64,000 nt of DNA from Imbricaverruca yamaguchii (taxonomy: Eukaryota; Arthropoda; Thecostraca; Neoverrucidae): positions 248,001 to 312,000 of the forward strand of contig JAOTOL010001199.1 of assembly GCA_034440575.1 (NCBI GenBank). The letters are read 5' to 3'. Position numbers and translations under genes: made by a program. Shown here piece by piece: positions 42,301-45,300 of this stretch (its first letter is position 1; the number at the start of each line of letters is the position of its first letter). The notes under the pieces were generated by a model. It saw only the letters and a program-made list of their open reading frames with translations. It was not told where the DNA came from and did no database searches.

Positions 42301-45300
42301 TACACTGGTTCGCGACGGCCAGAAGCTGTCAGAACACACAGTAACCTAGCCGGCCGTGTCTGTATTCACCGTTGATTGGTCATTCAGATGTCACGTGACT
42401 GGTCGTATTTCCTCGACGTCTTCTGGTGGTGCTCTCTGACTCAACGTTAGTGGGGCGGGTGATTTTTAGAGGCGTGCTGGACGATAAAGGTCATTTGCGC
42501 CGCATTTCAACGTTAACCGACGGGAGTTGGCTGTAGTGTGGTGTTTCCGTAGCGCCACGTAATATTCAGCCACCTGGAGTTCTTGTTTTCTTCCTTTCAA
42601 CATACTTTCCTATATCAGTAAAGGTGTTGAGCTCTGGGTGCCAAAGGTCCCGGGTTCAACACTCGCACCACTGGAGGCATTTCTCAATGCCGCGGCCCAC
42701 CGGCGAAACAGTGTGGGCGGCGCCATTACCCGTGATCGTGCATAAAGTGCGTCGAGAACCACCCAATAAACAAACTGACAGTCCCATATCAGCAGCTCCT
42801 AAGATCTTCTAGCATTTACGGACGTTTTAGCTTGTGTGGTTCATAGAACTGTACACGAATGTCTTATCGTTTCGAATATCGTTTCGCACGCTATGTGGTA
42901 CAAACCCATGAATATGTCATTGTGTCCCATGTCTCTTCTTCTATGGCAAATAGGGCGGGAACAAGCCCCCGACTGGGAGGATCGGCTGGCGAGCTACCGG
43001 GCGGCCGTGTCGAGGCATTGACGGCACGTTGAACTTTCAGTAAAAAATCTGCTGTTGAACTGGATTTCACGGGTCTGGTGGTGGAGCCAGGGTTCACGCA
43101 ACAAGCTCTGTTTAGCAACAGGGTCCTGGGTCATCGAGCCAACCCTGCAAGACCTTGGTTTTTTTATCGATGGGCTGCAAAAGCGCAATATATGGGCTGC
43201 CATTTGTCGAAGTTCTCCGTTTCAATCTCAACATTGACGGTACTGCGATTTGCTAACACCCACTTCACTGTTTTTACTGTGGGTGGGGGTTCGGTACATC
43301 AGCTGCTAACTGCACATCGCGCGTACTTATCTCGCATCCGAATACTTCTTTCACACAATGATGGCCCTAGCTTACAATTCGGCATACAATTGTTTACTTT
43401 ACATTCAGTGTACCATCTCGTCTGCGCCACATCATGCCCCGCCACATCACGCACCAGCCACATAACACCTCGTCACATGATATGTACGCCACATTACATA
43501 TCAGCCACGGGGACGAGTAGCCTGAGGGTAAGATGCTCGTCTCGCAATCGAAAGGTTGTGGGTTCGAATCTCACCTGCCGCTACTCTTCGCCCGCGACCA
43601 ATCGGCGTGAGAGATTGGCGACGCTGCATGACTCAACGGTCGATGTGTCGTAAAACAAATAACCAACCAACCAACCAACACATCAGCCACATTACGTCTC
43701 CGCCACATCATCTATCTGCCATAAAACATCATCGCCACATCACACCCCGCCACATCATATACCCGCCACATCATATACCCGTCACATCATATATCCGCCA
43801 CATCATATACCCGTCACATCATATACCCGGCACATCACATCTCCGCCACATCATATACCCGTCACATCATATACCCGCCACATCACATCTCCGCCACATC
43901 GCAGACTCGATGAGTTGGGAACACTGTCGCTTCGAAAAACTCCGCTACACCTCTTACATCGATTCAATTTGCTGAATATAGCCTCACACGACCCTTAACC
44001 TGCCTCGTCATTCCGATCACATCCCCACGCCCCGTCTCAGGTCATCATAAGCCTCCCCTGTAATCTCCAAACTAAGCGTCGCACGAGAACGAGAGAGATG
44101 GAGCTGTCACTGGAAAAGTGCTCGACGAGTTGGGCTAGAAACCGGTCCCAAAAGTTTCTCCCCCCAAAACGTGACGTAACTAGAGTGGGTTTATGAAGTC
44201 ACGATTGACTGGGCGCTAAATGATCTACCATGGTCGCTGCGCCCTAAAACCACACTCACACAAGTAACGATTGACGTCACGTTTTTGGCTCCGGAGACTT
44301 CACTCTGGGGAAAATTATAAAAGTAAAATATATTCGGAGTCATACACTATGTGCTGACACTAGCAAAAACAAATGTTCGATGTTAGCCCTAATCAGCAAA
44401 TATGCACAACTAATCATGTGAAACGAGAGGAAAAAAATCCGTTTCCACTCGAATAGTAAATAAACGATGAATGCGTCATTACGATATCTTTACCCATTTA
44501 AGCGTGAGAACTGGTTGATTTTTTTAGGTGACATCACTTGACCTTGACTAATCAGGTGACCGTTGATGACCTGACCTCACAATGTTCACACACGCCAAAT
44601 TAATGTTGGAGAAGGTACCCCGCAACACCAAACGCCGCGCCAATATAGCACCCCCGTGAAGCACCTAAGTAAGCAATCTAGGTAATCATGTAGGCACCTA
44701 AATAATCTAGGTAATCCTGCCAGCACCCAAGTAAGCAGCTGACTAATCCTGTGCCTGGCCCCGCAGTGAGTCGACCGAGGAGCGAAGGGGGTCGGCCGAC
44801 GGGGAGGTGGCCAGCGCCTCCCGGGAGCTGCCGTCGCAGCCGCCGCCAGCACCAGCACCAGCACCAGCGCCAGCACCAGCTCGCCCGGCCATGTCTGGCC
44901 AGGACGCGTCGCCGCCGCCGGAGCCGCGGCCGCCGGCGCCAGGCGCCGAACAGCGCGAGCTGGAGCCCGAGAAGCCGCGCATCCCGCCCATCACCTTCCA
45001 GGACGCCATCACCGACGTGAGTACCGGCGCCCGCCGGGTCGCGGGTTCGACTCCCGCGACGGGCGATCGTTTTTGCGGCGGTGCGCCGGGTCCGGCGGTC
45101 GTGGCCGAGGGGGACGACGACAATGCAGACGAGGGACGAGCAGTCAAGGGGAAGTTGCTCGTCTCACAATCGAAAGCTTGCGAGTTCGAGTCTAACCTGT
45201 CGCTACTCTTCGCCGGCGATCAATCGGCGTGAGAGATTGGCTACGCTGCATGACTCAACGGTCGATGTGTCGTAAAACCAATAGCCAGCCAACCAACCAA

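Follow-up and report, generated by a model that had tools for sequence, protein, structure and literature searches.

A 57-bp insert flanked by two exact 9-bp target-site duplications (TSDs) in the genome of the barnacle Imbricaverruca yamaguchii raises the question of how so small a sequence, a hairpin followed by a CA-rich tail, came to be inserted on its own. A preliminary description of the stretch of DNA analysed here (the window, 64 kb at positions 248001–312000 of one contig) had treated the insert, hereafter D, as a very small hairpin element that moves by itself, and its small size at least is borne out by the focal copy. We followed D through the window and through the 767-Mb assembly of 1,430 contigs to which it belongs, in a group of animals that the Pollicipes genome paper describes as being without a comprehensive repeat library (PMC8917513). 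Our overall reading, which we consider probable and hold with modest confidence, is that D is the 3' module of a LINE inserted alone, by way of a discrete RNA of about 57 nt.

Within the window, an nhmmer search with a 10-seed model recovered 21 D copies, each at 22.6 bits or more, and a covariance model returned the same 21 together with the tails of a tRNA-Val-like SINE (Table 1), which agrees with the count of more than 20 given in the preliminary description; 11 control sequences (the reversed window and ten block shuffles) produced no match at 20 bits, the best reaching 7.8. The single hairpin consensus proposed earlier is present as a pattern but covers two or more core types: GGGCGCTNNATGACC..GCAGTCGATGCGCCC is followed by a CCAA-type tail, and GGGCGCTAAATGACCAACCATGGTCGATGCGCCC, the core of the copies at 44211 and 48975, by a tail of the CA type. 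The eight TSD pairs quoted in that description all proved exact, at 9, 13, 11, 12, 9, 16, 15, and 14 bp, in two cases with one more base than the quoted starts imply. A TSD score of at least 9 was reached by 11 of the 21 copies vs 4.2% of 20,000 random non-tandem spots; the copy at 58318, which fell outside the range of that TSD search, is a further TSD bearer, and six others (21404, 14037, 13503, 29339, 25418, and 11918) scored 6 or less. Inside the TSDs of the 58318 copy, positions 58319–58338 (minus strand) hold a partial hairpin arm and eight A's ahead of D, perhaps the trace of a template switch. The hairpins at 21404 (−), 25418 (−), and 29339 (+) have upstream DNA in common with other genomic copies and hence look like the ends of longer elements, by which an initial tally of 21 headless D tails against 16 headed SINE tails was superseded.

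Table 1. Features of the window, with positions counted from its first letter
Feature	Positions	Strand	Remarks
5' TSD of focal copy, ACGATTGAC	44201..44209	+	exact 9 bp; 14 bp with one mismatch in TSD scoring
Focal D insert: T, 34-nt stem-loop (44211-44244), CA-rich tail	44210..44266	+	57 bp between exact TSDs
3' TSD of focal copy, ACGATTGAC	44267..44275	+	
D copy, CA-tail subfamily, core same as LINE	48920..48975	-	16-bp TSD
Short D copy	2673..2727	-	9-bp TSD
Short D copy, ~90 bp from the longer 21404 (-) element, perhaps nested in it	21496..21550	+	13-bp TSD
D copy, start 3 nt inside stem	27333..27381	+	11-bp TSD
Short D copy	32902..32956	+	12-bp TSD
Short D copy	39297..39350	-	12-bp TSD, one mismatch
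D copy, start inside hairpin	57302..57339	+	15-bp TSD
D copy, partial second 5' arm and A8 upstream	58264..58318	-	14-bp TSD
D copy	63192..63247	+	14-bp TSD, two mismatches
D copy	96..141	+	10-bp TSD
D copy, start 4 nt inside stem	10154..10208	+	12-bp TSD
D copy	62512..62565	+	12-bp TSD, one mismatch
D-type hairpin ending a longer element	21350..21404	-	96 bp upstream in common with L054, 86%
D-type hairpin ending a longer element	25363..25418	-	upstream in common with L068 (32 bp, 88%) and L070 (130 columns, 65%)
D-type hairpin ending a longer element	29339..29393	+	127 upstream columns in common with L012, 72%
D copy	13983..14037	-	no clear TSD
D copy	13449..13503	-	no clear TSD
D copy	53073..53127	+	weak 7-bp TSD
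D copy, 5' part lost	11907..11958	+	no clear TSD
D copy, 5' part lost	38551..38608	-	TSD indistinguishable from tail repeat
tRNA-Val-like SINE, 3' tail folds like D	43508..43677	+	one of 16 tailed window copies
tRNA-Val-like SINE copy	15519..15685	-	perfect 16-bp TSD

Upstream of the stem, identity among 18 window copies stayed at background from −60 to −11 (0.25 per column) and climbed to 0.71 across the first 12 positions of the stem-loop; a C at −9 from the stem in 13 of the 18 was marginal, a value that 6 of 300 random sets reached in some column. No exact A or B box was present in the six D copies examined, where the best matches had one or two mismatches and mostly overlapped one another, and D thus has no Pol III promoter head (tRNA, 5S, or 7SL) of the kind that marks a SINE, just as the preliminary description had stated for the tRNA head and the boxes. 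An exact B box was found in both of two tRNA-Val-like SINE copies, with an A box that had one or two mismatches.

The hairpin and tail of the CA-tail subfamily terminate a LINE with endonuclease, reverse transcriptase (RT), and RNase H domains. At L008 a frame of 477 aa that includes the RNase H domain is open upstream of the hairpin and stops 67 nt before the stem, and the DNA adjoining this frame (L072) encodes the RT and endonuclease domains; the Pfam families matched were endonuclease PF14529 (E 4e-21), RT PF00078 (E 4e-25), and RNase H PF00075 (E 2e-10). The LINE pieces were searched apart, neither joined nor mended, with domains in three of the four and the fourth without a Pfam family. 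When the last 401 bp of the LINE were used as a query, all 40 scored matches (from 1,585 candidates, the query's own place included) were at 95% or above. Twenty fetched LINE ends carried the CA-tail D hairpin, 14 exactly and 6 with one base different, and in all 20 the start of the tail was identical and TAT stood just before the stem. Members of the CA-tail subfamily therefore have both a 3' tail in common with a LINE, as SINEs do, and a LINE-identical 3' end, as truncated LINEs do, and the earlier claim that D moves on its own is left unsupported, its CA-tail hairpin being the end of a LINE. Relatives of the partner LINE were detected by tblastn in L017, L022, and other loci, though an RT motif scan of loci L001–L048 found none, and the DNA downstream of three among 150 listed RT matches held no D tail (best 2.1 bits). 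For the other subfamilies, common upstream DNA was seen and no LINE protein: to the eye, the reading frame that precedes 21404 (−) resembles that of a LINE, but tblastn with the LINE pieces gave no match there. The longer elements behind these subfamilies would presumably be LINEs as well.

The extent of the family was assessed with a hairpin pattern, which matched exactly at 5,668 places in the whole assembly (2,910 + 2,758) against none for the reversed control, and which requires an intact core and so passes over damaged or truncated copies. Sampling at even spacing across two large contigs, 195 kb once N's were discounted, gave 13 copies at 20 bits or more, a density that would extrapolate to roughly 50,000 copies genome-wide; the window, where 64 kb contain 21 copies, is denser. 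Nine of the 13 had a TSD score of at least 8, and their inserts started at −14, −7, −4, −2, −2, +2, +3, +4, and +5 relative to the stem, four of the nine thus beginning 2–5 nt inside it; in the window, 8 of 12 5' ends fell between −4 and +2, the remaining four being at −8, +3, +4, and +18.

Three further sets of genomic loci, in which TSDs were far above chance, were then compared. Set (a) comprised 28 loci picked by likeness to the focal copy and is biased in its flanks, the query having included bases upstream of the stem; 25 of the 28 had a TSD score of at least 10 vs 1.7% of 10,000 controls, and two of the loci examined, L033 and L038, seem to represent a single insertion present in two contigs. 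Set (b) comprised 20 loci from the first 100 pattern matches, 4–7 from each of four subfamilies, with flanks unseen beforehand: 16 were short copies with a TSD score of at least 8, starting at −15 (1), −7 (1), −3 (1), −2 (3), −1 (4), 0 (5), and +1 (1), while L054, L068, and L070 had no TSD and had upstream DNA in common with each other or with the window copies at 21404 and 25418, and L060 was left unclassified. Set (c) was drawn from the CA-tail core, which has 640 exact matches genome-wide (control 0), and consisted of 60 of the first 65 listed places, picked regardless of flanks; the five omitted were the LINE ends L073 and L075, the short copies L003 and L038, and one unfetched place. With short copies defined by a TSD score of at least 9 and a start between −12 and +8, 54 of the 60 were short, with starts from −9 to +1 and 37 of them at −2 to 0; two were long, with LINE sequence upstream, and four with TSD scores of 6 to 8 were unclassified. 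In a random comparison of similar but not identical layout, 3.3% of 10,000 spots scored at least 9. After removal of three duplicate loci there were 51 short copies, starting at −9 (1), −8 (2), −7 (3), −6 (1), −4 (2), −3 (4), −2 (10), −1 (18), 0 (7), and +1 (3), 35 of them at −2 to 0.

The 5' ends therefore cluster at the base of the stem, peaking at −1 where the copies are intact. Sets (b) and (c) overstate the sharpness of this cluster because an intact core was required, which excludes starts inside the hairpin, and because set (c) counted only starts from −12 to +8 as short. Truncation points are not spread along the element as in ordinary truncated LINEs, though ends inside the hairpin do occur. 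The preliminary description had set against itself the case in which copies are found only as the ends of a larger element; the larger element does exist, but 54 of 60 and 16 of 20 copies are short, lack it, and begin near the stem base, and it appears that the hairpin and tail of a LINE, about 57 nt, have been inserted alone at thousands of places in the genome. One locus, L035, has the order TSD-D-TSD-D-TSD, with two subfamilies (hairpin starts 518 − and 451 −) in one 14-bp target, from which it follows that both probably use the same endonuclease.

The bases at the junction bear on how these ends are made. The inserted base at −1 was T in 41 of 41 unambiguous inserts, and the LINE's A was found at −2 in 12 of 23 and its T at −3 in 7 of 13, part of the mismatch at −2 being possibly due to miscalled TSD borders. 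Since a template that continued upstream should match the LINE at both −1 and −2, the fall from 41/41 to 12/23 speaks for a discrete RNA that stops immediately ahead of the stem. On the simplest reading most such RNAs would end at −1, filler bases or microhomology would account for the junction, and a minority of products would be slightly longer or shorter.

In the explanation that we prefer, D would be the module in which a LINE and its relatives terminate at the 3' end, a stem-loop followed by a CA- or CCAA-rich tail, inserted with nothing else of the LINE. The template would be a discrete RNA of about 57 nt with its 5' end about one nucleotide before the stem (U followed by GGGCGC), most probably cut from longer hairpin-bearing transcripts, chiefly LINE RNA, or left over from them through a bound ORF2 protein or through decay. 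The LINE protein would serve as the enzyme and the module as its recognition site: the protein would bind the stem-loop, nick the target, and reverse-transcribe the fragment to its 5' end, yielding inserts of about 50–70 bp with TSDs of mostly 10–17 bp, and the tRNA-Val-like SINE, the tail of which would mimic the fold, is probably served by this LINE group as well. A stronger version, to which we give tentative credence at most, has D as a retroposon of about 57 nt that perpetuates itself and consists of nothing beyond the recognition hairpin and tail of a LINE, with any transcript bearing it, whether of a LINE or of an intronic D copy, cut one nucleotide before the stem and the fragment handed to the LINE protein; if true, D would be among the smallest mobile units, promoterless and with a 5' end set by RNA processing.

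The main rival is fall-off of the RT from full LINE RNA (abortive TPRT), in which the LINE protein copies the tail and hairpin of full-length LINE RNA and usually falls off on clearing the bound hairpin, D copies then being extreme 5' truncations made with no small RNA. An RT leaving the bound hairpin in this way could give similar ends, and the hairpin and tail do belong to a LINE; in addition, longer elements match two other D subfamilies, A1 and A4, eight nucleotides of the LINE, TCTGTTAT, are present in the inserts L094 and L131, and some ends lie 2–5 nt inside the stem. Set against this are the junction bases at −1 and −2 and the scarcity of long copies, at 2 of 60, or 4 of 65 when the skipped entries are added (2 LINE, 2 short, and 1 unclassified). 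A plain block to the RT at the hairpin, as distinct from fall-off on leaving it, would be expected to stop it at the 3' side, and here the whole hairpin is usually copied. We regard this rival as rather unlikely.

A less probable account, and in our judgement a doubtful one, makes D an independent headless SINE, its loci being transcribed by read-through or from an external promoter and yielding new D copies, with the LINE supplying the enzyme only. The 640 exact copies of one core and the several repeated cores among the first 100 of the 5,668 matches are what it would lead one to expect, and, as the base at −1 is T in all 41 unambiguous inserts, a cut before U would regenerate the same D unit; a short promoterless retroposon derived from a snoRNA is on record from platypus, as described in PMC3747384. 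The account is weakened in that no D subfamily has been demonstrated without a LINE counterpart, in that the six copies examined had no exact A or B box, and in that its one hint of a separate source, the CT flank, was an artefact of copy choice. CT stood before the stem in 16 of 17 set (a) copies of this core vs 0 of 20 LINE ends; this contrast is a selection artefact because the set (a) copies were chosen by similarity to a CT-containing query, and it was rejected as proof of a separate D source RNA once CT was found in 6 of the 54 short copies of set (c), where the two bases before the stem were AT in 25, TT in 15, GT in 7, CT in 6, and AA in 1. A separate source RNA for D is possible. An origin as a DNA transposon (MITE) or chance palindrome, suggested by the inverted repeat within the D unit, can be set aside as exceedingly improbable, given that TSD length is not fixed but varies (10–26 bp as scored in set (c), mean 13.8), that a tail lies between the hairpin and the TSD, and that the reversed pattern had no match against 5,668. 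Headless retroposition of the LINE type, which the preliminary description had likewise preferred to cut-and-paste, is supported by the same variable TSDs and 3' tail.

The fold of D is common to the tRNA-Val-like SINE. Five D copies folded singly gave a lower stem of 6 bp and an upper stem, separated by an asymmetric internal loop, and three SINE tails gave the same fold; ARAGORN assigned tRNA-Val to three members of the SINE family, and a TSD score of at least 8 was reached by 11 of its 16 tailed window copies vs 5.2% of 5,000 random spots. An alignment of 18 D and 16 SINE tails showed two-sided changes at lower-stem pairs 1 (G-C to C-G) and 3 (G-C to A-U), and on three of five measures none of 500 shuffles reached the covariation between D and SINE, which 64 and 74 of 500 did on the other two, the shuffles ignoring relatedness; a conserved stem-loop with compensatory changes is thus found between D and the SINE tails on three of the five measures, and covariation within D alone gave no signal. 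On these sequence comparisons, the SINE tail is a putative structural mimic of D. A geometric scan of the window that required a C+A-rich tail found D copies and SINE tails only. Pairing between the internal and apical loops of the A subfamilies was possible at four positions in 24, 22, 24, and 14 of 26 cores, a set of distinct 33-nt cores hand-picked from the first 100 pattern matches. Searches with peptides coded by D gave no match, those with peptides coded by the SINE gave one unnamed 72-aa match, and the D pattern had 0 matches in the viral_contigs and genome_contigs collections.

Several other features of the window were recorded. At 48328–48797, three tandem tRNA-Val-like SINE units of about 103 bp without a tail are followed by one tailed unit. 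A second tRNA-like SINE family, the head of which is Leu/Ser-like by eye, has eight window copies (699–850, 6309–6482, 7191–7360, 35222–35361, 35380–35540, 42618–42774, 45612–45788, and 60758–60934); its 3' half resembles that of the tRNA-Val-like SINE and its tail is different, and of two 3' ends folded neither was better than shuffles. Long (GTTG)n and (CCAA)n arrays are present at 13007–13165 and 54013–54429, and since a SINE tail lies next to the former at 13149, microsatellites may arise from retroposon tails. The RNase H portion of the partner LINE was matched by tblastn at positions 3675–4148 with 35% identity, perhaps an old LINE remnant; RT motifs were sought in the window and none was found, and an Rfam scan of the window returned two tRNA matches and nothing else. 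An alpha-1,4-galactosyltransferase-like reading frame had its best match in Pollicipes pollicipes (57% identity, 74% query coverage), a result that by itself marks the host as a crustacean and probably a barnacle, and the reading frames at 14–385 and 35619–35727, about 35 kb apart, by eye resemble DeSI/PPPDE protease exons.

Were the preferred reading correct, D would be a natural case in which what a LINE recognises is uncoupled from what it carries: a hairpin and tail with nothing else attached appear to suffice for insertion and, extrapolating from the examined sets, to have done so thousands of times or more. Two questions would become testable, namely how LINE 5' ends originate and how small an RNA a LINE can integrate, and the copies would provide a small, dense set of insertion markers.

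That LINE tails are recognised as stem-loops and are held in common with SINEs is already established in the accounts of PMC4176376 and PMC3747384. In the former, zebrafish ORF2 proteins are reported to bind the 3' stem-loop, which retrotransposition requires (PMC4176376), and UnaL2 of eel and ZfL2-1 and ZfL2-2 of zebrafish are described as having, like D, a 3' stem-loop and short repeat tail common to LINE and SINE (PMC4176376; PMC3747384). In such stringent-type systems the SINE has a promoter head, whereas here most examined copies are the tail module alone; the LINE of D also differs from the UnaL2 and ZfL2 systems in having RNase H, and binding by ORF2 is in our case predicted by analogy. 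In the literature searched, outside which most subscription journals lie, we recognised no account of LINE or SINE tails inserted by themselves as a family or in large numbers. The Entamoeba EhLSINE, the Chlamydomonas SINEX elements, and the platypus retroposon are several times longer than D and have a body besides the tail. As described in PMC3747384, EhLSINE, SINEX-1/2/4, and the snoRNA-derived platypus retroposon resemble D in being without a tRNA head, and EhLSINE and SINEX-1/2/4 resemble it further in carrying a LINE tail. Mammalian tailless retropseudogenes are likewise described there as very short LINE-made copies of RNA pieces (PMC3747384), but they have no tail, whereas D is hairpin and tail only. 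Ordinary 5'-truncated LINEs have the same 3' end, the TSDs, and the missing 5' part, and most LINE copies are said in PMC3747384 to be cut at various positions and to be 100 to 1,000 bp long; the ends of D, by contrast, pile up within a few nucleotides of one site, at about 57 bp. D is accordingly filed as a LINE-mobilised non-autonomous element, and not as a SINE, because it has no promoter head, nor as an ordinary LINE truncation, because its ends are not spread.
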